A stretch of 64,000 bases of DNA from a virus, in the IMG/VR virus record IMGVR_UViG_3300036832_001498, positions 1 through 64,000 of that record. One strand, written 5' to 3'. The translations under genes were made by a program, and so were the position numbers. Under the pieces are notes generated by a model, which had not been told where the DNA came from, did no database searches, and was given only the letters and a program-made list of their open reading frames with translations. Shown here piece after piece: positions 3,763-42,808 of the stretch. How positions within the stretch are numbered: the first letter of the stretch is position 1; every line of letters starts with the position of its first letter.

Positions 3763-4132
3763 CGAGACCATCTGCGCCGCGCTGCTCTCCGGGCGCTGGA
3801 CGATCTTTCCTTCGGTGGGGCAGGTGCTCGACGAGATCGACGCCATGAAGCGCCTGGCAGCGGCCCAACGCGAGGATGACTATGTCCAGTGGAAGCGCGA
3901 GCAGGAAGCAGCCGCAGCGGGCGGCAAGCTCGCGACCGAAGAGGATTACGCGTGGATGCGCAGCGAGTTCTACCGCATCTTCGGCGTCGAGAAGCAGGGA
4001 CGCGAGGCGGAAGCGCGAAGACAGCTGCTGAAGCAGCAGGCGGCTCAACTGCAGCAGAAAAAGCCGGTGGAGAAAGCCGAGCCGGTGACACCGGAAAGTG
4101 TGAATCCGTTTCGACAGGAGAACAAAAAATGA
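3551..4132 (+). CDS. Putative helicase-loader-like protein
   Basis: 193 residues, starting after an AGGAGG Shine-Dalgarno at about 3538-3543 inside the 3' end of the preceding gene (212-nt out-of-frame overlap). Residues 50-95 (RLWKARLAGIPDETICAALL followed by a segment containing FPSVGQVLDEI) resemble phage helicase loaders of the G39P type, where a short helical domain with an FPPTxxEI-like motif is typical. The C-terminal half is charged, helical and Gln-rich. The loader role is inferred from weak motif similarity and neighbours. Confidence 0.58.
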   Translation: MPMKPINPDDFSPLFSTPAADKTISLVESPSPEPSPTHWSGLMTTMAQDMRHDLPPDVYRLWKARLAGIPDETICAALLSGRWTIFPSVGQVLDEIDAMKRLAAAQREDDYVQWKREQEAAAAGGKLATEEDYAWMRSEFYRIFGVEKQGREAEARRQLLKQQAAQLQQKKPVEKAEPVTPESVNPFRQENKK

Positions 4133-4746
4133 GAGAAGCATTTGTGCATAGCGACGTACAGCGCATCATGGCCTCGGACATGTGCCCGGGCTGCGGCTCC
4201 ATGCTGCTAGGGACGCCAGACGGCAAGGTGTGTCTGACCTGCGCTACGACTAAGAGCGGCACCGAGCAGGGCGAACCGGCGTGGGATGAATTCCGCAAGC
4301 AGGCGACAGAGCCCGCCGGAGCTTCCGAAGAAATCGCCGAGCAGAACAACCAGGCGCAGCTGCGCCTCGATCCGCAGCCTGCGGTGGCAGAGGAAGCGGA
4401 CAAGGTGCCTGTTCTCCGCCCGGAACAGAACAAGCTTCCTTCGCGCTTCGACTACGAGCGGATGCTGGTGGAAACGCCGCCGCCCGTCGAGCAAGCCGTG
4501 GAGGAGAGCGAGCCTGCTGCTGCCAGCTCCACCATTGGGACGGCGGAGCTGGCCGGGCCCGCTACCGATCAGAATCCCGATCAGGAGCTGGCGGTCCAGC
4601 TGGCTGGGCTGCGTCGGCTGGTCCCCTCGATCCGCAAGCATCTACTCGATGCCTACGAGGAGATGTCGCAGGTCGGCATCATCGCCGAGCAGCTGCAGAT
4701 CAAGCTGGAGGCGAAATCGGAAACCGATTTGGAGAAACAACCATGA
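4129..4746 (+). CDS. Hypothetical protein with N-terminal zinc ribbon
   Basis: 205 residues; the ATG overlaps the upstream TGA. CPGCG at 19-23 and CLTC at about 36-39 form one zinc knuckle. A long acidic, disordered middle follows, then a C-terminal helical segment (about 165-200). Family not recognised. Translational coupling with the replication genes suggests a DNA-metabolism accessory role, which is unproven. Confidence 0.6.
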   Translation: MREAFVHSDVQRIMASDMCPGCGSMLLGTPDGKVCLTCATTKSGTEQGEPAWDEFRKQATEPAGASEEIAEQNNQAQLRLDPQPAVAEEADKVPVLRPEQNKLPSRFDYERMLVETPPPVEQAVEESEPAAASSTIGTAELAGPATDQNPDQELAVQLAGLRRLVPSIRKHLLDAYEEMSQVGIIAEQLQIKLEAKSETDLEKQP

Positions 4747-4997
4747 GCGCGGTGCCCAGCCAGCAGCGGAAGACGGCGCTCAAGTGCGAGACCGAGGTCG
4801 CCGATCACATGATCGACAAAGAGTGCCTGTCGTTTCGTTTAGCGGCGGGGTTGCCTTTGCTGTGCGGCCATCCCGCTGCCTGGTATCGCATGGCGGGCTC
4901 GCTGACCTCGGTCGCGGCCAAGCTGTGCCAGCGGCACGTCGACATGTTCCAGAAGCGCGGGCTCACCGTCGTGCCCTGTGATCCGCCCAAGGAGTGA
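4743..4997 (+). CDS. Small Cys/His-rich hypothetical protein
   Basis: 84 residues, ATGA overlap with the gene before. Conserved-looking Cys and His residues (C17, C28, CGH near 41, CQRH near 61) suggest a metal site. No family recognised. Member of the early rightward operon. Confidence 0.55.
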   Translation: MSAVPSQQRKTALKCETEVADHMIDKECLSFRLAAGLPLLCGHPAAWYRMAGSLTSVAAKLCQRHVDMFQKRGLTVVPCDPPKE

Positions 4998-5648: not shown

Positions 5649-6161
5649 ATGCTTTCCGTGGAGTCCTGCTACGCGCTGGCGGTGCGCAATGGTCCGGGCA
5701 AGAGCATTGCCGGGCGAGTCGTCGAGCTGCCCGAGGAGAAGGTGTTCTATCGCTTCTGCCCCGACCTTGCCCCCAGCATGCAGCTCGATTCCCGCGTGGC
5801 CTGGTATCTCGTCTCTCATCCCGAGCTGTGTACCGGCGCGATTCACTTCTCGACCGTCGAAGCGCTCTACACCATTCCGGTGCGCAAGTTCTGGCGGAAT
5901 GCCGCCTACATCAGCCTGCTGCGCACTTGGGCGGTGGCGCGAGACATCTGGCAGAAGGGTTTTCTGTGGTACGAGCCCGGGCCCACGCGAGTGGAGCGCA
6001 CCGCCAGCGTGCCGGTGCCCGCTGCCCAGCCGCTGTGCGCGGCGGCGTCCACGGCGAACTATCACAAGCCGCATGTGCCCGCCCTAGGCCGCTACGACGG
6101 CCAGTACCGGCTGAGCTGCGTTTTCTGCGGCTGCTGGCTGGAACAGGAGAAAAAACCATGA
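5649..6161 (+). CDS. Hypothetical protein with C-terminal zinc motif
   Basis: 170 residues, preceded by AAAGGAG. The main body (1-125) has mixed alpha/beta character. The end (YRLSCVFCGCWLE) gives a Cys cluster near 156-162 that could bind zinc. No family recognised. The stop overlaps the next start. Confidence 0.55.
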   Translation: MLSVESCYALAVRNGPGKSIAGRVVELPEEKVFYRFCPDLAPSMQLDSRVAWYLVSHPELCTGAIHFSTVEALYTIPVRKFWRNAAYISLLRTWAVARDIWQKGFLWYEPGPTRVERTASVPVPAAQPLCAAASTANYHKPHVPALGRYDGQYRLSCVFCGCWLEQEKKP

Positions 6162-6373
6162 GAGGAACTTCCAACCGGGAGCGCAGCTATCGCGATAAAC
6201 CGGCGCTGCATTTTCACGAATGCGAAATGTGCGTGCTGCCCCACCGCTGGCAGCACCTGAAGAAAGACTGTCATCTCACGGTGAGCGCGGCCTGTCAGTT
6301 CTACCTGCTTCGCCAGCCGTGTTTCTGTGTTAAAACAGAGCACAGGCAGATTGCCTCGGGCGGCGCAGTATGA
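6158..6373 (+). CDS. Small Cys/His-rich protein
   Basis: 71 residues in an ATGA overlap with the previous gene. HFHECEMCVLPHRWQHLKKDC gives a C-x2-C...H...H pattern typical of small phage zinc proteins. It is the last gene before the promoter region at 6.4-6.5 kb. Confidence 0.5.
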   Translation: MRGTSNRERSYRDKPALHFHECEMCVLPHRWQHLKKDCHLTVSAACQFYLLRQPCFCVKTEHRQIASGGAV

Positions 6374-6466
6374 CTGCTGCCCCAGTGGTCTCTATAGCCG
6401 GGAGAAAAGGTTGTCCGGAATTCGTAACAGGATGTTGCCCTGCGGGAACATTTGTTTGCAAAAACC

Positions 6467-6495
6467 TTGACAGCTTCGCGGCCCGCGACTAAGAC
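6467..6495 (+). promoter_or_regulatory. Sigma70-like promoter for the zinc-finger gene
   Basis: Perfect TTGACA at 6467-6472, a 17-bp spacer, then TAAGAC at 6490-6495 (a weak -10). It lies in the 174-bp gap between 6373 and the leader ORF at 6548. The -10 is immediately followed by a palindromic element (6502-6515) that would overlap the transcription start. Confidence 0.5.
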
Positions 6496-6501
6496 TAGGG
6501 G

Positions 6502-6515
6502 GCAACAGTTGTCAA
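6502..6515. promoter_or_regulatory. Candidate repressor operator (GCAACAGTTGT)
   Basis: GCAACAGTTGT at 6502-6512 contains the palindrome CAACAGTTG and overlaps a second palindrome, GTTGTCAAC. The same 11-mer occurs in inverse orientation at 44981-44991, in the promoter of the XRE repressor. Its position just past the -10 fits a repressor site. Confidence 0.45.
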
Positions 6516-6547
6516 CCGTCGTTTGCCCTACGCAGGAGGAGCAAATC

Positions 6548-6607
6548 ATGTTCGTGTCTAGCCATATTGCATTGGCTGAGGACGCAACCGAAGCGGGGTT
6601 GCGATGA
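6548..6607 (+). CDS. 19-residue leader ORF coupled to the zinc-finger gene
   Basis: ATG preceded by a very strong GGAGGAG (about 6535-6541), encoding 19 residues (MFVSSHIALAEDATEAGLR). Its TGA overlaps the ATG of the zinc-finger gene, which has no good Shine-Dalgarno of its own. It looks like a leader peptide that delivers ribosomes to the downstream start. Whether the peptide itself does anything is unknown. Confidence 0.5.
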   Translation: MFVSSHIALAEDATEAGLR

Positions 6608-7464
6608 GCGCTGCCCCGGTTCTCACCGCCGATATCAGAAAGCAGCCGGGCAAACACGGCGCTTACCTCTGCCCGGAATGCGGTTCGCGCTATCCCGGAA
6701 AATTTGCTCTGGGCGAGCATCGTCAGAAGCAGCACGACATCCCCAATGACTGGGTGAAGCACACCAAGGGCAGGCCGCCCAAGCCTGCGAGTGATCGCAC
6801 CGCCAAGATCCCCACCCTCGACATCGTCCAGCGCAACGGCCAGTTCAAGTGTCCGGAGTGCGGCGAAAAGTTTCCCAAGCGCAACACCCTCGGGGTGCAC
6901 CGCGCTTCTAAGCATGGGGTGCGCGGCACCTCGGTCGCGGCCAAAAACTACGCCGTGAACCGCGCTGCCACGACTCACGTGAATGGTCACATTGCGACCA
7001 CCGCCGTCAAGCTGGTGCGGGGCAAGTATCGCTGCCCGGAGTGCCAGGCGAAGTACAACGATCTGCAGCATCTCGGTCTGCACCGGCGTGCCGCCCACGA
7101 CATCCACGGCGTGTTCAGCTTCAAGCACCAAGCCCGACAAAAACAAAAACAACTACTCCTGAAAGGAGCACAGCAGAATGAGTACCCAGCCAGCCATGAA
7201 ACCGACAACGATCCAGCCTATCTCTCCCCGTCCCCGCAACCTGTATCACCGAACGGCGCGGGCCGAAGAAAAACAGCGTGGACAAACGAGTCCCTCTCCG
7301 GCTTCGTTTTCGCCCACGTCCACTCTCTCATCGAAGATGCGTGCCGAGGGCGTGAAGACGCTATCCCGGACGTTACCCAGCGGATTTCAGAGCTTCTTCA
7401 CCTTGAGATACATGGGCAAGCGGCGCGGGCACAGCGTGTGGGGCTGCTACGTCGTATGTCCTGA
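6604..7464 (+). CDS. Protein with three classical C2H2 zinc fingers
   Basis: 286 residues. Three fingers follow the eukaryotic-type spacing C-x2-C-x12-H-x4-H exactly: C23/C26/H39/H44, C83/C86/H99/H104 and C144/C147/H160/H165. Each begins with CPEC and has a basic, Gly-containing tip. Between fingers 1 and 2 lies a GRPPK AT-hook-like motif. The C-terminal part (about 215-286) is a separate helical region. Its own promoter and operator suggest a phage-encoded DNA-binding regulator. Bacterial Ros/MucR fingers have a shorter x9 loop, so this differs. The last 287 nt overlap another frame at 7178. Confidence 0.75.
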   Translation: MSAAPVLTADIRKQPGKHGAYLCPECGSRYPGKFALGEHRQKQHDIPNDWVKHTKGRPPKPASDRTAKIPTLDIVQRNGQFKCPECGEKFPKRNTLGVHRASKHGVRGTSVAAKNYAVNRAATTHVNGHIATTAVKLVRGKYRCPECQAKYNDLQHLGLHRRAAHDIHGVFSFKHQARQKQKQLLLKGAQQNEYPASHETDNDPAYLSPSPQPVSPNGAGRRKTAWTNESLSGFVFAHVHSLIEDACRGREDAIPDVTQRISELLHLEIHGQAARAQRVGLLRRMS

Positions 7465-7576
7465 GTGTGGGGCCAAGCCTGACCCGGATCAGGTGCCGCC
7501 CCACCGCCGCTGGCAGTGGTTGACCATGCACACGCTCGTAGCTCATCGCGAGGTCTTCGTCCCTCCGGCCAACTGA
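7178..7576 (+). CDS. Overlapping ORF ending in a CPEC...H-x4-H zinc motif
   Basis: 132 residues in the +1 frame relative to the zinc-finger gene. The ATG is preceded by GGAGCACAGC, the start-site element recurring in this genome. The first 80 residues are Ser/Pro/Arg-rich and look like an overprinted frame. The end holds CPECGAKPD and HTLVAHREVF, which look like a real zinc finger with a longer loop. Alternatives: the true start is an ATG near 7411, or the fingers are joined to the upstream protein by a +1 frameshift. Confidence 0.45.
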   Translation: MSTQPAMKPTTIQPISPRPRNLYHRTARAEEKQRGQTSPSPASFSPTSTLSSKMRAEGVKTLSRTLPSGFQSFFTLRYMGKRRGHSVWGCYVVCPECGAKPDPDQVPPHRRWQWLTMHTLVAHREVFVPPAN

Positions 7577-7610
7577 ACTACCGAACGAATCTTAGGTGGA
7601 GCCCAATGCT

Positions 7611-7826
7611 ATGAAGAAACGGGAGCCTCTCTCTGCGCCGGGCTACACGGTCGACCAGAACGGTGATGTGCACATCGACCACGGAGCCGCTTTACGGGCG
7701 CTGCGCATGCGGCCTACGCCGCTGCTTCACACCCTGCTCACCTCGTACACGATGATGATGTTCACCCTGTTCATGCCCCACATCGCCCTCATGCAGGATT
7801 TTTTCGATTCGGGGCCGCCGCTGTGA
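7611..7826 (+). CDS. Small hypothetical protein with hydrophobic C-terminal helix
   Basis: 71 residues from ATG 7611, with AGGTGG at about 7594-7599. Residues 40-62 (LLHTLLTSYTMMMFTLFMPH) are hydrophobic and may insert in the membrane. The stop overlaps the next GTG. No family recognised. Confidence 0.5.
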   Translation: MKKREPLSAPGYTVDQNGDVHIDHGAALRALRMRPTPLLHTLLTSYTMMMFTLFMPHIALMQDFFDSGPPL

Positions 7827-9422: not shown

Positions 9423-9838
9423 TGGCTAATCCACATCGTCCGCCCACTCGCGGGCATCCGCCGTTCGAGCTGGGCAACACCATCGGATTTCAGAAGGGCG
9501 TCTCGGGCAGTGCTGGCCGACCGGTCAAGTGGCGCACCCTGATCACCCATGTGCTGAAAGAAAAACTTTCCCGCATGCAGGGCTCGGGGGAGAACCGCAA
9601 GACCTTCGCCGAAGCGTTGGCGGATCGGCTGGTGGCCTGCGGGCTGCATCCCAAGCCCGAGGAAGACAAGACCGTGATCGCGGCCATCACCGAGATCATC
9701 AACTACACCGAAGGCAAGCCCCGCCAGCAGATCGATGTCAACGACATCACCGAAGCGGTGGCCGCTCGCAGTGACGCGGATCTCGAGTTCTACATCCGCC
9801 ACGGGCACTGGCCGGAAGAAAAAGTCACCACCCAATGA
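9422..9838 (+). CDS. Small terminase-like DNA-binding protein (DUF5681-like)
   Basis: 138 residues. The N-terminal PPFELGNTIGFQKGVSGSAG followed by GRP is the signature of DUF5681-type proteins that sit directly upstream of large terminases. A helical domain (45-90) and an acidic tail follow. It overlaps the terminase ATPase gene by ATGA. Role: DNA recognition for packaging, inferred from family and position. Confidence 0.68.
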   Translation: MANPHRPPTRGHPPFELGNTIGFQKGVSGSAGRPVKWRTLITHVLKEKLSRMQGSGENRKTFAEALADRLVACGLHPKPEEDKTVIAAITEIINYTEGKPRQQIDVNDITEAVAARSDADLEFYIRHGHWPEEKVTTQ

Positions 9839-10506
9839 GTTCTCTGACCAGCGACCTGATGGTGGGGGTGCTGGTCAAGCAGGAACAGCAGCGCCGCCAG
9901 ATCTGGAATCTATGCGGAGAACATGTTTCGAGCTTCGAGCGCGGGCCCATGTGCTGGCTGACCCAGCACACCGCCACCGAGGATTCGCACTGGCTGAAGA
10001 AGAACTCAGCGCCCGTCGCGCCCTTCCCGGCACTGGAATATTTCCTGCCGCTGATGGCGCTGCTGCTTTCCGAGCCCACCCTGTTCATCTCCAAATCGCG
10101 GGAGATGATGACGTCGTGGCTGGTGTGCGGTTACATCGCGTGGCTCACCCAGTGGCTGCCCCAGATTCTCTGCATCATCCAGACCGAGAAGGAAGACAAG
10201 GCAGTGCAACTGATCGAGTACTGCCGCATTCTCTATCGCCGTCAGCCGGAGTGGATGCAGGACAAGAACAAGCTCACCGTCGACAACGCGGTCGAGCTGA
10301 AGCGCAGGAACGGCAGCCATGTTCTCGCCGTGCCCCAGGGCGAGAATCAGGTGCGCCTCTATCACCCTCACCTCTACATGCAGGACGAATCGGCGTTCCT
10401 GCCCGAAGCCGAGCAGTGCTTCAACGCGGTGCGTCCGGTGGCCAAGCAGATTGTGTGTGTGAGTTCGGACGAGGTGGGCTGGTTTCATTTGCAGACCCGG
10501 CGGTGA
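9835..10506 (+). CDS. terL: Large terminase, N-terminal ATPase half only
   Basis: 223 residues. The Walker-A-like segment FISKSREMMTSW lies at 84-95, and the Walker B/catalytic element LYMQDESAF has D184 and E185. The preceding QTEKEDKAVQLIEY and LKRRNGSHVLAVPQGENQVR match the ATPase core of phage large terminases, and the ORF stops right after the motif III region (VCVSSDEVGWFHLQ). The nuclease domain is missing here and is encoded separately at 13892-14941. It would power DNA packaging into proheads at the portal, as half of a two-chain enzyme. Confidence 0.85.
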   Translation: MSSLTSDLMVGVLVKQEQQRRQIWNLCGEHVSSFERGPMCWLTQHTATEDSHWLKKNSAPVAPFPALEYFLPLMALLLSEPTLFISKSREMMTSWLVCGYIAWLTQWLPQILCIIQTEKEDKAVQLIEYCRILYRRQPEWMQDKNKLTVDNAVELKRRNGSHVLAVPQGENQVRLYHPHLYMQDESAFLPEAEQCFNAVRPVAKQIVCVSSDEVGWFHLQTRR

Positions 10507-10517
10507 GGCGGTGATTC

Positions 10518-10742
10518 ATGGCAAAACTTTCGTCAGCCCGGCGTAACGCGCTGCCCGCGAGCACGTTCGTGTTTCCCCAGTCGCGCAAGTTCCCCATTCC
10601 CGATCCTTCGCACGCCCGCAACGCGCTGTCGCGGGCAGCGGCTAAGGGCCCATCGACCGAGGCCCGAGTGCGGGCGGCAGTGAGCCGGAAATTTCCCGGC
10701 ATCGGAAAAAAGAAAAAGTCTTCGGCGTTTTTCGGAGAGTGA
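10518..10742 (+). CDS. Small basic virion-module protein (DUF6582-like) with FFGE C-terminus
   Basis: 74 residues. The pattern ARRNALPASTF...KFPIPDPSHARNALSRAA...AAVSRKFPGI is that of a small family common in phage packaging/head modules. The C-terminus is GKKKKSSAFFGE; the last residues are shared with five other small proteins here. The codons for GE plus the stop (GGAGAGTGATG) form the Shine-Dalgarno of the next gene. Confidence 0.7.
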   Translation: MAKLSSARRNALPASTFVFPQSRKFPIPDPSHARNALSRAAAKGPSTEARVRAAVSRKFPGIGKKKKSSAFFGE

Positions 10743-11623
10743 TGTCGAATTTTCGCGTGCTGCTGATTTCGCCGCCCGGCTACGTGCACTCCGAAGCTCT
10801 GCGCGAAGTGGCCGAGACCCTGATGTACGGGCTGCGCAGCCTCTCTCACCAGGCGGAGATCGCCTCCAGCTTCGCGCCCGGCGCGATCCACATCGTGCTC
10901 TGCCCCCATCTGCTTTCCTCGCGCAGCCAGCTGCCGCAGGGCACCATCCTCTACAACTTCGAGCAGCTGGGAGCGCCCCATCTCGAGTCTCTGATGCATC
11001 TCGCCCGCCACTATCCGGTGTGGGATTACAGCGCCCGTAATATGAAGCAGTGGCCGATCCGCATCGCGCCCATCGAAGTTCCGCTGGGCTATGTGAAGGA
11101 GCTGAACCGCATCGACTCTGCGCCCGAGCAGGACATCGATGTGCTGTTCTACGGATCGATCAATCGCCGCCGCCGCACGCTGGTCGAGCGGCTGCATCGC
11201 GCCGGGCTGAAGGTGATGACCCTGTTCGGCACCTACGGAGCGGAGCGCGACCGCATGATCGCCCGCTCGAAACTGGTGCTCAACATGCATTACTACCCGA
11301 CGCAGATCTTCGAGGTGGTGCGTGTCTCCTACCTGCTGACCAATTCGAAGGCGGTGGTAGCGGAGTGCGACGACTCGACCGAGATCGACAAGGAGATGCG
11401 CTCGGCGGTGGCCTGCGTGCCCTACGAGCTGCTGCGCGACAAATGCGTCGAGCTGGTACGCAATCAGCCGCTGCGCCGAGGCCTCGAGATTCGCGGCCAC
11501 ATCATTTTTTCGAAACGAAGCGAGAAAGAAATTTTGCGCACTGCGCTGGAGAAAACCTATGCCCCCAACCCGACCTTCATTGAATGCGATGCCTCCGATG
11601 CCACCATCGCCCGCGCCTGGTAA
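10742..11623 (+). CDS. Glycosyltransferase-like protein (GT-B)
   Basis: 293 residues from ATG 10742 (an in-frame GTG at 10739 is too close to the Shine-Dalgarno). It begins RVLLISPPGYVHSEA, has IDVLFYGSINRRRRTLVERL near 135-155 (the hinge between two Rossmann folds) and VLNMHYYPTQIFEVVRVSYL near 178-197, resembling the nucleotide-sugar site of GT4-type enzymes. Such genes occur in phages next to head genes; virion or host-surface glycosylation is inferred. The 3' end overlaps the next ORF by 65 nt. Confidence 0.68.
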   Translation: MSNFRVLLISPPGYVHSEALREVAETLMYGLRSLSHQAEIASSFAPGAIHIVLCPHLLSSRSQLPQGTILYNFEQLGAPHLESLMHLARHYPVWDYSARNMKQWPIRIAPIEVPLGYVKELNRIDSAPEQDIDVLFYGSINRRRRTLVERLHRAGLKVMTLFGTYGAERDRMIARSKLVLNMHYYPTQIFEVVRVSYLLTNSKAVVAECDDSTEIDKEMRSAVACVPYELLRDKCVELVRNQPLRRGLEIRGHIIFSKRSEKEILRTALEKTYAPNPTFIECDASDATIARAW

Positions 11624-35848: not shown

Positions 35849-38800
35849 ATGGCACTATCGGGCGATAACTCCGGCAACCCGCAGCCCGTCGTGACTCCCG
35901 ATCTCACCGCACCGCCTGATCTCACTCAGCCCGGCAAGGGGCCGGAGTTCGCCGCGAAGAATGCGGATCCCAATCGGATCGATGTGGTCATGCCTCCCTC
36001 GCCAGACAATCCGAAAGGTTTGAAGGGCAGCGTTCCCAAAGAGAATCTCCCGGCTGCTCTGCAGCGGGGTTTCAAAGTTGGCGTGCAGGCAGTGTCGCCG
36101 GAGGGCAAGTGGGGTGTCCTGCCTGCCGACAAGGACTCAGTCGCGGAAGCGAAAAAGCGCGGCTTTCATTTTGGTCCCGCTGCGTCACTGGGCGGCATCC
36201 GTCCGCCGCAGCCACCCGCGATGCAAGAGGCACCCTCAGGCGTGCTCGGCTTAATGGCTGAACCGTGGCAGCAGCATTCCGAGCTTTCGCGAGAGGAAGC
36301 GCAGCGCCATGCCAATCTCGCTTATGGACCGGACGCAGCTCCTGGAGTTTTGGGCGCACCATCTCGGATCTTCCATGCAATCGCTTCGCCGATACAAGAA
36401 GCCGAGGCAGCCGCTTCGGGAGTGGTCGGTGGTTTGACCAGCGATCCCAAGGCGCTGGCTGCCGTGGCGGCGGGCGCTGTAAATCCAGCGATCCCAGCGG
36501 CCTATTTCGGAACGCAGGGCGCAGCCGGGTTGCTTGGACTCGGTGACAGGCCAAGTTCGGTGAAGCAGGCGATCCTACATCCGACGCCAGAAAATGTTCA
36601 GCAGGCACTGTTCGATGCGTCGATGGCGTTTGGCGCAGCCGGAGAGGGAGTGCGAGGCTTCAAGCCGATTGAAGCAACGCCGGGTGTGCCCGGTTCACCC
36701 GTTAACCGTCCGCCCGCTCCTGCCGAGGGCGCTGCGATGCCTTTACTAAGGGCGGCAAAGCGGGGCGCGATAGATCCGTTGCTGCAGGGTGTGCGCGGGA
36801 TCTATGACCCAGCAGCGCTGACTCCGACTGAAGCCGCGACCAAAGCGTTTCGCCCGAGAAACTCCAAAGCTAACTGGCAGGCTGAAATTCAATCCTCGCT
36901 TCCGCATATGCGCCGCGCCGCCGATGACCTGGGCATTGATCCGGAAAACATGACGATGGAGGAGGGCATTCAGGCAACGCAGAAAGCAGCTGTTGACAAG
37001 TGGATGGAGTACAAGCGCAACTTCCTCGGGCCGAATGCGGATGTGGTAGTTGATGCCAGCCCGGTGGCCGCCGCCATTCGCGACAAGATCACAGATCGCA
37101 TGCGCGAACAGAATCCGGAACTCGCCGCGAAGATCGAGGCCGTGGCCAAGACCTATGACGGTCGCTCGCTCACCATGGCGCAGCTGCAGCAGCGCGTCTC
37201 TGAACTGAACAACGAAATGCGTGCTACGGAGGCGAAGTTCGTCGGCGACAAGCGAGCTGCGAAACTCAGCCCCAAGAATGCTTACAAGTTTGCCGAGCGC
37301 GACACCATGCGCGGGATCATGGACGACCGCATGAATCAGCTGAGTGGTCCCGGTGCCGCTCAGATGCGCAAGGACTATGGCGCTCTTCGCTCCGTGGAAG
37401 ATGTGATGCAGCGCCGCATCAATGTTGTGGATCGAGCGGCCCGCGAACCGCTGGCGGCGATGATGGCGAAGATCTATGCCGCCGGTCACATCGTTACCGG
37501 TCTTGCCACTGCGAATCCGTGGAGCGTCTTAAAGGGCGCAACGGCGCTGGCGGCAGAACGTCGCATGCGGTTGCAGCAGGATCCGGATTACCTCACGCAG
37601 CTGGCGTTTAAGAACACCAAGCCCAGCACGCCGATGGAGCCGGAGCCGCCCCCGCAGGGACAGCTGCCGTTCGGCCCGAGCACGCTCTGGGACATCAACC
37701 AGACTCCGGCCCCAGAGCCGATTCAGCCTCCGCTGGCGCTTCCCCCGGGGCAGTACGAGCAGCCGCCCAGCCCTCTGGGCCCGATCTTCCGCTCCCGTCA
37801 GCCCCAGCTGGGCAAGGGTGCCGAGCCGCCGGTGATCCCGCCTTCGAGGCAGCTGGGCCCGGCCAGACCGCACCAGCTCGGGCCGGTGCCAGAACCCCCG
37901 GTAAACCCCCTTTTCCCGCGCCTAGGACGCCGCCAGGGCGTCGCGGAGGCTCCGGGTGGACCTCAGGGGGCAGCCCCAGCGTCTTTACAAAACGTTCCTA
38001 TAGGAACACTCCCCAAGGATCTGAAGTCCATGCCGCTGGGCGAGCCCACCACGGTCGGCGGCAGGGCCACGGTCGAGACCGCCAAGGCCGACAACATGTT
38101 CTGGGAGCAGGCCAAGCAGGCTCTGGGACCGAAGGCCACCTTCTCCGAGATCAGCTCCAAGGCTTTGCAGCTGAAAGCTGATGCACTGCGTGAGCGTGGG
38201 CCTTCCCCCAGCGGTCGACCTCAGCCCTTTGAGACGACCACCGGCGCAATGCAGACCATTGAGAATGATCCCAACCTGCCGGTCCACCCGGGCCGGAAAC
38301 CTCCGCAGGGCACCATCGAGAACATCCCGCCCTTCAGCGGCACCGGCGATCTGGAAGCTCGCCCGCTGGCGATTGGTCCGCCGGGGCCGGAAAGTCCGCA
38401 GATGGATCTCGGATTCGGACTGCCGCGCCGGGCTGGGCAGTTCTTCTCGAAGGCCGAGCAGATCGCCGAAGCCAAGCTGCCGAAGTCCGGAACCGGCGAC
38501 AGTTTCTTGGCCACGCTGCGCAACAACGGAGTCAAGGCTGAGGAAATCTCTGATCTCGGGCTGGATGAATTCGCGGGCAAGCCGAAGGTGACCAAGCAGG
38601 AATTTCTGGACGCGGTGCAGAGCCGCAGGCCTGAGCTTTCGCAGACAGTGCTCGCTGGCGATGACGCCAGATTTGAGAAGTACGCCACCCCGGGCGGCGA
38701 GAACTACCGCGAGATTCTCACACATTTTCCACAGAGCGACGCGGCAGCGGCGGCGGAATCGTTCAAGCAAGAAGCCGATGCGCGAGAGCGCGAGATGAAC

Positions 38801-41800
38801 GATGAAATTGATCGGCACAACAACGCGAGCGCTGAGGATCAGGCGCAGTGGCCTGACGACTATTTCGAGAAGGAGAGGGAGGCGCTGCGCAACCTGCGAG
38901 CGCAGCAACGCGCTGCCGAGGCTGAAGCTCGCACCACGGACTATCGAGGCGGGCACTTCACGAACGAACAGCCGAACACCATGATGCACCGTCGTGAAAG
39001 CGACTTCGTTACCACCGACCGCATGCCGGTGACGCAGGTGCATGAGATCCAGAGCGATCTTCATCAAGAGGGCCGGGATGAGGGCTACCGCCTCAAGCCG
39101 ATCCGCCAGCTGCCCGAGGGATACACGACGAAGCACATGAGTGGCGGCGGCTACGTCATCCTCGATCAGCGAGGTCGGCCTGCAATGGTGGCTGGCGATG
39201 AGGCGTGGTTCCCGGGAGCGCAGTCTCCTGAAGATGCCATCGATGGATTCCTCGGGAAATTCAACCAAACCCACAGCACCGGTGGCCCTCCCAATGCGCC
39301 CTTCAAGAAGTCGCATTGGGAACTGAACATGAAGGACGCGATCCGCCAGGCTGTCGAGGACGGCAAGGGAGGCCTGACGTGGGACACGGGCGACACGCAG
39401 AATGATCGCTACAACCTCGCCAAGCAGGTGAGCCGCGTTGAGTACGACCCCAGCGACAGCACTCTCACGGCTTACGACCACAGCGGCAATCGCGTGATTC
39501 ACGAGACTGCAGAGCCGGATGAACTGCACCGCTACATCGGCGACGAGCTGGCGGAGAGGCTGCAGAAAAAGATCGACAACTACTACCCGGTGAATGAAGA
39601 CGATTATTACATCGAGCCTGATCCTGACGAGGAAGACACCTACCGCGTTATGCGCGATGGTGAAGCGATAGACGAGGGGCTCACGCGCAAAGAGGCTGAA
39701 CGGTCGCGGCAATCCTACATCGACGAGGACTACAACAACCAGGAGCTACCCGCGTTACGCGGCCTCAACGACCTGACCGTTGGCGGCGAGGGCATGAAGG
39801 GCTTTTACGACAAGATGGTCCCCGACTTCGTGAAGAAGTACACGAAGAAGTGGGGCGGGAAAGTCGACACCGCAGAGCTACCCACCGGCGAATCGACCAA
39901 AGAGCACGTGTACGTCGGACCTGAGCTGACCAAGGAACAGGTCGAGCAGAAGTTCAAGGACGCAGGACGCAATGGCCCGCAGGAGTGGAAGAAGACTCCC
40001 TACGGCGGAGGCTCGTGGGCGTGGTTTCAGGACGGCCAGCAGATCAGCGGTGCATTCCCGGAAGAGAGCGAGCGCAACTTGGCAGCGCGGACGATCTCTG
40101 TCCCCAAGGCGCAATCCGACTGGCATCGCGTCTTCATCGCCATGGATCACGGCATCCCCTTCAAGGAGGAAATGGCAAACCACCCGGAGCTGGCGGAAGA
40201 CATCGGCGGCAAGATCCAGACCAACGAGACGCCGGTCACCACCACGGTTCACCGCCTCACCTTCACTCCCGAGATGGCCCGCGCCATCAGGGAAGAAGGC
40301 CAGCCGCTCTACTCGCGGGAGCCCGGCGAGAAAGCCACCGCGCCACGTTCGCGAACTGTGGGCAGCGTCATCAAAACACTGCGCGACGTGGAAAGCTCGG
40401 TGGATCCCGGCGATGAAACCACCGCAGCGCACATCAAAGTCAACGACGCCGGTCAGGATTTTCTCTCCTCCGGTTCGAAGTGGCTGGGCATCAACTGGAA
40501 AGGCTCCGACGCTCCCTCCCGCGTGGCGCTACTGCGCCAGTTCGCCGACAGCGTTGAGAAGACGCGGCCCACCACCGGCGGCCCCGAAGCTGCTGCCAAG
40601 CTGCGGCAGCTCGCCGATCAGATCGAGCAGGTGCACGCTGCCAACTATGACCCCAACGCCGGGCACGCAGGCGTTCCCATCGTGCATGATCCATCAACCG
40701 TGAGCCATGAAGCTCACATTCACGGTGGCCAGCGAACCTTCGATCCTGAAGGCGATGTCGAGAACTTCACCAACGTCGAAAAAACCTTGGCGCATCCTGC
40801 CGTTGAAGTTGCGCGGCCAACTCTCGAAGCCGCCTATGGCGGCGAGATGCGCCCGGCACACATGGTTGCCGAGCTGCAGGCGCACATTCTCGATGGCAGT
40901 CACGAAGAGCTTGGTCTCAGCAAGGAACAAGCTGTAGACTTCATCAAGCATTCGCTGGATGTTCTGGCCGAGCACCACGGGCCCGAAGTGATGGCGAATC
41001 CTCCGCGCCTGAGCCAGCGTTATCTGCAGGCAATGCGCGACTACGTAGGAGAAGAGAATTATGCCGGTGAATCCGCTGAACCCGCTGAACCGCAAACCAC
41101 CCAAGAAGAAACTCAAGCTGCATACCCCGGAGGAGCTGGTGGCGGCCCAGCAGAAAATGTTGGGGCTGGCCAGCCTGCCCAAGAAGGAGCGGGACACGCA
41201 GGTGGAGAAGCTGGTGTCGGGCAAGAAGTAATTCCCAGGTTCCTGCGCCAGCGTGGCAACCAGATCGCCTTTCAAGACCTCAGCCCCGAGCACCAAGACG
41301 GCGTTCACGAATATGTCGAGGACACTGAGCCCGACTGGAAACCAGAAAACCAAAAGTTCGTGAAGCAGACCGTGCAGCTGTCCGATCTGACGAAGGCAAA
41401 GAATCGCCCGCTGCCTTCGCTCGATGATGTCGACAAGAGCATGGCTGGAAAGTCAATGACAAAAGGGCCGCTACTGCTGGACAGCGATCTCTCGGTGATG
41501 GACGGGATGCACCGGCTTGCTGACGCGATCAAGAGCGGCAAGGACTCCGTCGACGCCTACGTGCGCCAGCCAGAGAGTCCCGACGATCTGAAATTTGTGC
41601 AATTGCGCAAGAAGCCTGCGCCGGTCAAGCCCACAGGCCCAGGCGGACGCACGCTGGTGGAGGATGTGGGCAGAACCTTGCAGAAATACTCCCGGGAAAA
41701 TGTCGGCAAGCCGCTCAAGCTGACGGCGGACAATGTTCCCCAAGCTGTCGAGCGCTACGTGAAAGCCGCTCTGCCTGAGGCCAAATACCAGCTCGTCAGT

Positions 41801-42808
41801 CAGGGCAGCGAGCAGAGCGGAGCAGACTGGTACACCAAAGCCATCTCCGACATGCAGTCAGAGTTCGCTAAGAACGGTCACCCCGAGCTTGATCCCAAGA
41901 AAGGCGATCCCACCAAGCAGACGTTGTTCAAGGCCATGCTGGCGGGCGCGAGTCTGGGTAATAAAGAGCTGCAGACGGTGCGCAACGGCGATGGCATCTG
42001 GAGTGAGTACAAGCGCACCGGCAAGGTGCCGATTGTGAATCCTGAAACCGGCAAGGGTTGGCCCAACGGGCAATTCAATGCCTACATGCATGGCTTTCGT
42101 GCACTGCAGCAACTGATCGACGAGAAGGGCGAGAAGGGCGCAGCGGATTTCCTGATGTCGCAGCATCCCATCAGCGAGCTGCGCCAGTACCGCGACTCGG
42201 TGCCGGGAAAAGCTGGCGATCAGCGGTATGGCGGGCTCATCCTCGGCGACAAGATGGGACCATTCTTCCTCAATATGAACGGCATTCGCTCTGAGCTGAC
42301 AGCAGATATGTGGGAGGCTCGTCACTGGAACCGGATCATGGGCACGCTGCAGGATCCCAATTCAGAGACCGGTTTGGTGGACGCGCCGCGCAACGAAACC
42401 GAACGCCGGGCGATGAAGCAGGCCAAAGAAGTTCTTGCTGGGAAACTAGGTCTTGATACAGCATCCACTCAGGCGGTAAATTGGATCTATGAACAGGCTC
42501 TCTACAACGCACACGGCATCACCCGAACAGTCTCCGACTACGGAGAAGCAGCTCGGGCCCACTTCGCAAGCCGAAATGCAGGCCACGGTGAGGAAGCTCC
42601 AGCGGCAAGGCCGCATGCCATCCCTGCGCGAGTGGCTCCGGGCCGTCGAGGAGACGAGCGCCGTGATAAGGCCAAAAGTGCTCGCGGCCCGTCGACGGCA
42701 AGCTCGCTGATTCCTTCTTTCCTGCGGCGCAAGCAACTCGAATCGATTACTCCCCCACCCGCAGCTCCCGGCGCGATCCCAAAATTTCTGCAACAACGCA
42801 ACGTCTAG
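35849..42808 (+). CDS. Giant polyvalent (LPD-type) virion protein
   Basis: 2319 residues. N-terminal 300: low-complexity with Gly/Ala-rich, possibly membrane-active segments (about 185-235). About 325-580: helical domain. About 595-720: Pro-rich linker. About 860-1420: the large-polyvalent-protein module: LGLDEFAGKPKVTKQEFLDA, HEIQSDLHQEGRDEGYRL, GLTWDTGDTQNDRYNLAKQV and GFYDKMVPDFVKKYTKKWGG. About 1600-1650: SHEAHIHGG, a possible metal site. About 1880-1910: DSDLSVMDGMHRLADAI, like a ParB-type fold. C-terminus: two IPxFL repeats. Polyvalent proteins are thought to enter the host with phage DNA and counter defences or modify the cell (established for the class, inferred here). Confidence 0.78.
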   Translation: MALSGDNSGNPQPVVTPDLTAPPDLTQPGKGPEFAAKNADPNRIDVVMPPSPDNPKGLKGSVPKENLPAALQRGFKVGVQAVSPEGKWGVLPADKDSVAEAKKRGFHFGPAASLGGIRPPQPPAMQEAPSGVLGLMAEPWQQHSELSREEAQRHANLAYGPDAAPGVLGAPSRIFHAIASPIQEAEAAASGVVGGLTSDPKALAAVAAGAVNPAIPAAYFGTQGAAGLLGLGDRPSSVKQAILHPTPENVQQALFDASMAFGAAGEGVRGFKPIEATPGVPGSPVNRPPAPAEGAAMPLLRAAKRGAIDPLLQGVRGIYDPAALTPTEAATKAFRPRNSKANWQAEIQSSLPHMRRAADDLGIDPENMTMEEGIQATQKAAVDKWMEYKRNFLGPNADVVVDASPVAAAIRDKITDRMREQNPELAAKIEAVAKTYDGRSLTMAQLQQRVSELNNEMRATEAKFVGDKRAAKLSPKNAYKFAERDTMRGIMDDRMNQLSGPGAAQMRKDYGALRSVEDVMQRRINVVDRAAREPLAAMMAKIYAAGHIVTGLATANPWSVLKGATALAAERRMRLQQDPDYLTQLAFKNTKPSTPMEPEPPPQGQLPFGPSTLWDINQTPAPEPIQPPLALPPGQYEQPPSPLGPIFRSRQPQLGKGAEPPVIPPSRQLGPARPHQLGPVPEPPVNPLFPRLGRRQGVAEAPGGPQGAAPASLQNVPIGTLPKDLKSMPLGEPTTVGGRATVETAKADNMFWEQAKQALGPKATFSEISSKALQLKADALRERGPSPSGRPQPFETTTGAMQTIENDPNLPVHPGRKPPQGTIENIPPFSGTGDLEARPLAIGPPGPESPQMDLGFGLPRRAGQFFSKAEQIAEAKLPKSGTGDSFLATLRNNGVKAEEISDLGLDEFAGKPKVTKQEFLDAVQSRRPELSQTVLAGDDARFEKYATPGGENYREILTHFPQSDAAAAAESFKQEADAREREMNDEIDRHNNASAEDQAQWPDDYFEKEREALRNLRAQQRAAEAEARTTDYRGGHFTNEQPNTMMHRRESDFVTTDRMPVTQVHEIQSDLHQEGRDEGYRLKPIRQLPEGYTTKHMSGGGYVILDQRGRPAMVAGDEAWFPGAQSPEDAIDGFLGKFNQTHSTGGPPNAPFKKSHWELNMKDAIRQAVEDGKGGLTWDTGDTQNDRYNLAKQVSRVEYDPSDSTLTAYDHSGNRVIHETAEPDELHRYIGDELAERLQKKIDNYYPVNEDDYYIEPDPDEEDTYRVMRDGEAIDEGLTRKEAERSRQSYIDEDYNNQELPALRGLNDLTVGGEGMKGFYDKMVPDFVKKYTKKWGGKVDTAELPTGESTKEHVYVGPELTKEQVEQKFKDAGRNGPQEWKKTPYGGGSWAWFQDGQQISGAFPEESERNLAARTISVPKAQSDWHRVFIAMDHGIPFKEEMANHPELAEDIGGKIQTNETPVTTTVHRLTFTPEMARAIREEGQPLYSREPGEKATAPRSRTVGSVIKTLRDVESSVDPGDETTAAHIKVNDAGQDFLSSGSKWLGINWKGSDAPSRVALLRQFADSVEKTRPTTGGPEAAAKLRQLADQIEQVHAANYDPNAGHAGVPIVHDPSTVSHEAHIHGGQRTFDPEGDVENFTNVEKTLAHPAVEVARPTLEAAYGGEMRPAHMVAELQAHILDGSHEELGLSKEQAVDFIKHSLDVLAEHHGPEVMANPPRLSQRYLQAMRDYVGEENYAGESAEPAEPQTTQEETQAAYPGGAGGGPAENVGAGQPAQEGAGHAGGEAGVGQEVIPRFLRQRGNQIAFQDLSPEHQDGVHEYVEDTEPDWKPENQKFVKQTVQLSDLTKAKNRPLPSLDDVDKSMAGKSMTKGPLLLDSDLSVMDGMHRLADAIKSGKDSVDAYVRQPESPDDLKFVQLRKKPAPVKPTGPGGRTLVEDVGRTLQKYSRENVGKPLKLTADNVPQAVERYVKAALPEAKYQLVSQGSEQSGADWYTKAISDMQSEFAKNGHPELDPKKGDPTKQTLFKAMLAGASLGNKELQTVRNGDGIWSEYKRTGKVPIVNPETGKGWPNGQFNAYMHGFRALQQLIDEKGEKGAADFLMSQHPISELRQYRDSVPGKAGDQRYGGLILGDKMGPFFLNMNGIRSELTADMWEARHWNRIMGTLQDPNSETGLVDAPRNETERRAMKQAKEVLAGKLGLDTASTQAVNWIYEQALYNAHGITRTVSDYGEAARAHFASRNAGHGEEAPAARPHAIPARVAPGRRGDERRDKAKSARGPSTASSLIPSFLRRKQLESITPPPAAPGAIPKFLQQRNV
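41061..41231 (+). CDS. Nested alternate-frame gene inside the polyvalent gene
   Basis: 56 residues in another frame, ATG 41061 with AGGAG at 41047-41051. The sequence (MPVNPLNPLNRKPPKKKLKL, then HTPEELVAAQQKMLGLASLP and a Lys-rich end) has the composition of a real small basic helical protein. In the same stretch the big frame is low-complexity (AEPAEPQTTQEETQAA, GAGGGPAENVGAGQ), as expected where one frame is under selection for the other. Too short for ordinary ORF cut-offs. Confidence 0.55.
   Translation: MPVNPLNPLNRKPPKKKLKLHTPEELVAAQQKMLGLASLPKKERDTQVEKLVSGKK
42489..42710 (+). CDS. Second nested alternate-frame gene near the 3' end of the polyvalent gene
   Basis: 73 residues; the last 44 (MQATVRKLQRQGRMPSLREW, then LRAVEETSAVIRPKVLAARR) look like a genuine helical protein, so the true start may be ATG 42576. 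No good Shine-Dalgarno. The big frame here becomes Ala/Arg/Pro-rich (EEAPAARPHAIPARVAPGRR). Likely overprinting; less certain than the 41061 case. Confidence 0.42.
   Translation: MNRLSTTHTASPEQSPTTEKQLGPTSQAEMQATVRKLQRQGRMPSLREWLRAVEETSAVIRPKVLAARRRQAR

Follow-up and report, generated by a model that had tools for sequence, protein, structure and literature searches.

The window analysed here comprises 64,000 nucleotides from an IMG/VR virus contig that is 65,923 bp long. Two overlapping genes lie on its plus strand: Z (6604-7464), which encodes a 286-aa protein with three C2H2 zinc fingers, and O (7178-7576), which encodes in the +1 frame a protein of 132 aa with a zinc-finger-like C-terminus. 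Z was defined from its translation, Pfam matches, an AlphaFold2 model and 25 other distinct loci, and O from its relatives and their alignments. The pair sits between a replication-initiation-like gene and the terminase gene (phrog_5989). The terminase, together with an SU10-type capsid protein, an SU10 adaptor and an integrase (phrog_1), indicates a phage, probably temperate, and bears out the phage origin assumed in the original prediction for Z. The terminase large-subunit match is restricted to 9835-10506 and does not cover 10739-11623; the two ORFs, about 230 nt apart, may be parts of a single interrupted gene (an intron, an intein remnant or a frame error). A 2319-aa ORF at 35849-42808 has no PHROG match.

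The Z gene and its upstream region

Translation of Z yields exactly the ligands that had been predicted, C23/C26/H39/H44, C83/C86/H99/H104 and C144/C147/H160/H165, all three fingers having the spacing C-x2-C-x12-H-x4-H. The fingers, each a match to the finger pattern, occupy 6670-6735 (finger 1, C23-H44), 6850-6915 (finger 2, C83-H104) and 7033-7098 (finger 3, C144-H165). A strict form of the pattern, CPxC-x9-LGxHR-x3-H searched as DNA, has three matches in the window, every one inside Z, and none in 100 shuffles. The Pfam family zf-C2H2_6 matches three stretches of the protein (5e-12, 45.9 bits against a cut-off of 25), zf-C2H2_4 matches three and zf-C2H2 two, the latter families also scoring above cut-off. 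The AlphaFold2 model, built with 21 homologues, has the expected three beta-beta-alpha fingers (block pLDDT about 92, as in finger 1) on poorly predicted linkers, and a confidently predicted two-helix tail at residues 228-285 (7285-7458; pLDDT mostly 75-94) that coincides with an ungapped conserved block. The best Foldseek matches of the model are the DNA-binding C2H2 arrays Aart, CTCF and ZBTB24 (E 4e-4 to 9e-4), and Z also matches Aart in sequence (2e-12). Lys and Arg outnumber Asp and Glu by 47 to 24, counted on the stop-to-stop frame. The linker between fingers 1 and 2 contains an AT-hook-like motif, KGRPPKP (6766-6786), as read from the sequence, and linkers of some relatives have the similarly AT-hook-like KRKYTKRS or KKRGPYKSR.

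Ligand spacing, the aromatic and Leu core, the Pfam score and the beta-beta-alpha fold all place Z among classical C2H2 proteins. With zf-C2H2 and zf-C2H2_6 it shares the exact ligand spacing and the core; it differs in its long spacers, H-x4-H, helical tail, dual-coding 3' end and phage origin. The spacers are 38 (H44 to C83) and 39 residues (H104 to C144) and lack TGEKP. A Kruppel-type array was rejected because the 7-residue TGEKP-like linkers are absent, and the label "Kruppel-like", given to Z at first, is wrong in the strict sense. Ros/MucR proteins have C2H2 zinc ligands, as Z does, and are DNA-binding bacterial proteins. Ros, however, has a 9-aa spacer and a single finger in a larger bbbaa domain (PMC9779718), whereas Z has 12-aa spacers throughout and three compact bba fingers; Ros/MucR identity was rejected on these grounds, in agreement with the distinction drawn in the original prediction. 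The QALGGH of plant Q-type fingers resembles the LGxH of Z; QALGGH itself is absent from Z, LGxH alone being common (FALGEH, NTLGVH, QHLGLH).

Upstream of Z lies a possible leader ORF of 19 aa (MFVSSHIALAEDATEAGLR, 6549-6607, plus strand), also read from the sequence, with a strong SD (AGGAGGAG). Its TGA overlaps the Z start as ATGA, and Z itself lacks a strong SD. The overlap and the strong leader SD suggest that Z may be translationally coupled to the leader. The promoter of its own once ascribed to Z was not confirmed: a promoter scan of the window found no sigma-70-like site at 6200-7700, and a bare TTGACA occurs at 6467. Two small ORFs just upstream of Z (6158-6373 and 5649-6161) carry CxxC motifs (HECEMC...HRWQHLKKDCH; CVFCGCW) and have no match in Pfam. 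In three relatives (L048 at 7550, L056 at 4859 and L103 at 2601) the Z start falls within the 3' end of the preceding gene, so that three consecutive genes overlap there.

Relatives, neighbourhood and likely role of Z

Used alone as a query, the Z protein of the window brought up almost no homologues, its fingers being short and divergent, and relatives had to be sought with a degenerate finger pattern at the DNA level. The pattern scan retrieved 56 viral loci, of which 17 distinct loci, window and Tunturi_5 counted, have the Z tail in common. A search with a profile of O supplied further loci, bringing the total used in the tests to 26. The family thus includes at least 26 distinct phage loci, among them the window and Tunturi_5, all with fingers and a conserved tail. 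The zinc ligands are kept in the homologous fingers, a set chosen by its ligands, though the number of fingers differs from one to four. Z has thus withstood both the fold check and the homologue check put forward in the original prediction. With related Z proteins in at least 25 other loci, and classical fingers in further prokaryotic-virus families, several of them from the same scan (L011, L013, L015, L026 and L057), Z is not unique. The finger proteins of L015, L017, L021, L026 and L027 share an N-terminal domain (MAQRIQTVCDVH...ETWEV) that looks Lsr2-like by eye; this reading was not confirmed by Pfam in the four scanned (L017, L021, L026 and L027). L011 has, at 3841-4938, a multi-finger C2H2 protein fused to an HNH-like C-terminus.

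One annotated phage relative is gp156 of Tunturiibacter phage Tunturi_5 (PP885688.1, annotated as "zinc-finger domain protein"). Tunturi_5 is an Acidobacteriota jumbo phage (host from the record and PMC11924767) of 309 kb; the text of the paper describing it has no discussion of zinc fingers (PMC11924767). Like Z, gp156 has C2H2 fingers, the same tail and HGVxGTSxA after the finger, but it has two fingers instead of three. As in the window, a +1 overlapping ORF related to O is present (BLASTP 1e-09), which is unannotated in the record. A profile of Z matched none of 396 Acidobacteriota genomes; with the O profile a single clear orphan finger was recovered, in an Acidobacteriota genome (L121). 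On the strength of Tunturi_5 and the L121 genome, the hosts of these phages of soil bacteria are probably Acidobacteriota, the assignment being tentative for the window itself. The orphan (CPHCEDRPPSHIKLGDHWRWTSFHLSTRH, about 1500-1610 of L121, minus strand) is of the O type, occurs without Z, and has as neighbours a ParA-like gene and a gene that may encode a replication protein.

In an alignment of 50 fingers the Leu hardly changes, and the canonical contact positions -1 and 6 rank with the most variable ones. The basic charge, the canonical fold and these variable contact positions favour a DNA-binding regulator or an architectural protein. We infer that Z would be built of three beta-beta-alpha modules, each stabilised by zinc and joined by long basic linkers, of which one is AT-hook-like, and that the helical-hairpin tail likely serves oligomerisation. 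Z would most likely bind DNA, as a regulator or nucleoid-type protein of the early or middle programme, and the sequence-specific regulator originally proposed is plausible. The canonical contact positions of finger 1, read from the sequence, are Gly, Phe, Ala and Glu; classical base reading is thus not obvious, and the fingers could contact RNA or protein. It is possible, if rather unlikely, that Z is not a transcription regulator and acts in replication, packaging or host takeover, its fingers touching RNA, protein or ssDNA. The early-region neighbours fit such a role: in some 40-kb relatives the pair is part of a series of small genes, a few ORFs after an SMC/SbcC-like ATPase (a few genes upstream of Z in L048 and L103), and gp156 of Tunturi_5 adjoins a replication helicase. 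The weak DNA-contact residues of finger 1 and the varying finger number point the same way, whereas the canonical fold and the basic linkers with AT-hook-like motifs favour binding to double-stranded DNA.

Gene O and coding in two frames

The more unusual feature of the locus, missed in the first reading, is the gene that overlaps Z in the +1 frame. In the window 287 nt (7178-7464) code in both frames by the tests described below; across loci the overlap is about 185-290 nt. The +1 frame is open over the Z tail in 17 of 17 tail-sharing loci by the Z-based scan, where O ends 26-58 codons past the Z stop, and it is also open in the loci found through O. The C-terminus of O has the form CPxC...RWxW...H-x4-H, with ligands invariant in alignments of 15 and 23 sequences; in L044 and L118, which lie outside those alignments, the last His is apparently Cys. 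In the window this finger-like motif, placed by the invariant columns and the model, is C94-C97...RWQW..H118-H123 (7457-7546). The model of O, of moderate confidence (mean pLDDT 69.9), has a hairpin and a helix at the motif, and the protein is basic (K+R 19 versus D+E 7). No family in Pfam or PHROG scored above cut-off for O, and Foldseek of the model against the PDB gave no meaningful match. In L120 (2595-3195) a small indel in the overlap apparently swaps the Z and O frames, either a sequencing error or a real loss.

Selection on both frames was examined in a block of 44 ungapped codons from 25 loci. The mean BLOSUM score per column is 1.84 for Z and 1.85 for O, and neither frame contains a stop in any locus. 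When the Z residues were kept and synonymous codons resampled, the O score fell to -0.12 (sd 0.05, max 0.10), with O-frame stops expected in about 21 of the 25 loci. The converse null, with O residues kept, gave a Z score of 0.02 (sd 0.05, max 0.15) and Z-frame stops in about 17 of 25. Permuting each locus's own codons gave 0.32 (max 0.45) and led to the same conclusion. The +2 frame of the overlap has stops in 23 of 25 loci, and the finger region, used as a control, shows no +1 excess (-0.20 versus -0.13, sd 0.07). Pairwise variation at codon positions 1, 2 and 3 is 0.48, 0.35 and 0.44 in the overlap and 0.47, 0.48 and 0.67 in the fingers, so third-position variation is lowered in the overlap (0.44 versus 0.67). 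These nulls carry no explicit phylogeny, and kinship is covered in part by the finger control and by ten divergent loci (mean nucleotide identity 47%), in which the result is the same. Dual coding of the overlap, with purifying selection on both frames, is strongly supported by these computations.

The start of O has its own signal. In the window an internal SD, AAGGAG (7163-7168, plus strand, from the SD/start scan; AAAGGAG with the preceding base), lies 9 nt before the ATG. Defining the signal as AAGGAG, AGGAG or AAGGA, 5-10 nt from ATG or TTG, we found it where expected, 185-287 nt before the Z stop, in 22 of 26 loci when the +1 frame was scanned, whereas none of the 26 has it in frame 0 or 2; a clear SD is absent there in the other four. 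Under the codon-resampling null the count averaged 2.3 and never exceeded 7. A signal confined to the +1 frame supports internal initiation over frameshifting, which is a minority possibility. Under frameshifting, O would be the downstream portion of a Z-O fusion arising from programmed +1 slippage, adding an extra finger to the array. Such a fusion would suit the constant +1 frame of O and its finger-like end just beyond the Z stop, and slippage is conceivable at the CTA CGG TAA with which Z ends in many loci. The fusion is nevertheless improbable: it needs no SD and start some 185-290 nt upstream, yet 22 of 26 loci have them; the O frame is conserved over the whole overlap, while Z is conserved up to its own stop; and inspection of the Z stop, without a dedicated slippery-site search, revealed no frameshift motif shared by every locus. 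That one frame alone codes in the 3' third, the other being open by chance or codon bias, is very improbable: long spurious ORFs are frequent in GC-rich genomes and the ORF list of the window holds many long ones, but the data lie far outside both single-frame nulls, the finger control lacks a +1 excess and the +1 start signal is far above its null.

Relation to known systems and significance

Our preferred reading, to which we give a probability of about 0.6, is that Z is a phage regulator that binds DNA and is translated together with O, a small zinc-binding partner encoded by the overlapping gene. Ribosomes would restart at the internal SD and ATG or TTG in the +1 frame, yielding a protein that is small and basic and carries a zinc-finger-like motif at its C-terminus, and co-translation from a single mRNA would cause Z and O to be made together. 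O would then most likely act with Z, as its partner or modulator. Most simply O is its partner, the one line of evidence for this link being the gene overlap itself.

Two known systems are instructive. In overlapped or embedded spanins (P2, lambda Rz/Rz1), +1-overlapping frames encode interacting proteins, and annotation usually overlooks the second gene (PMC6139136). As in a spanin pair, O starts inside Z in another frame and runs past its stop, and Z/O likewise form an overlapping same-strand pair with both frames under selection. Spanins, in contrast, are membrane lysis proteins, whereas the early-region proteins Z and O have zinc fingers or a finger-like motif, and no lipobox or long hydrophobic segment was seen by eye in either. 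The archaeal virus protein AFV1p06 provides a classical finger fold in a prokaryotic virus and binds DNA (PMC3541406). AFV1p06 has a single finger with Glu in place of the last His, where Z has three fingers, and the abstract reports for it neither a tandem array nor an overlapping gene, both of which are present in Z/O.

To our knowledge, few conserved out-of-frame overlaps of such length that bear signatures of selection on both products have been documented in double-stranded DNA phages outside spanins. Standard gene callers miss such overlaps. The open-access literature that we searched contained no paper describing overlapping phage genes of this zinc-finger kind. We tentatively suggest, at somewhat less than even odds, that Z and O constitute an undescribed phage regulatory module in which a C2H2 array, its number of fingers free to evolve between one and four, is obligatorily co-encoded with a zinc-finger-like partner through a conserved dual-coding overlap. 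If so, the two proteins would be made together and the DNA-binding specificity would diversify between phages, the Z family offering a naturally varied set of fingers. Tunturi_5 with its cultured host (Tunturiibacter psychrotolerans X4BP1) would be a system for a direct test of the claim. Ros is the usual proposed ancestor of eukaryote-type fingers, and the presence of multi-finger classical C2H2 proteins in phages of soil bacteria bears on the origin of such fingers.
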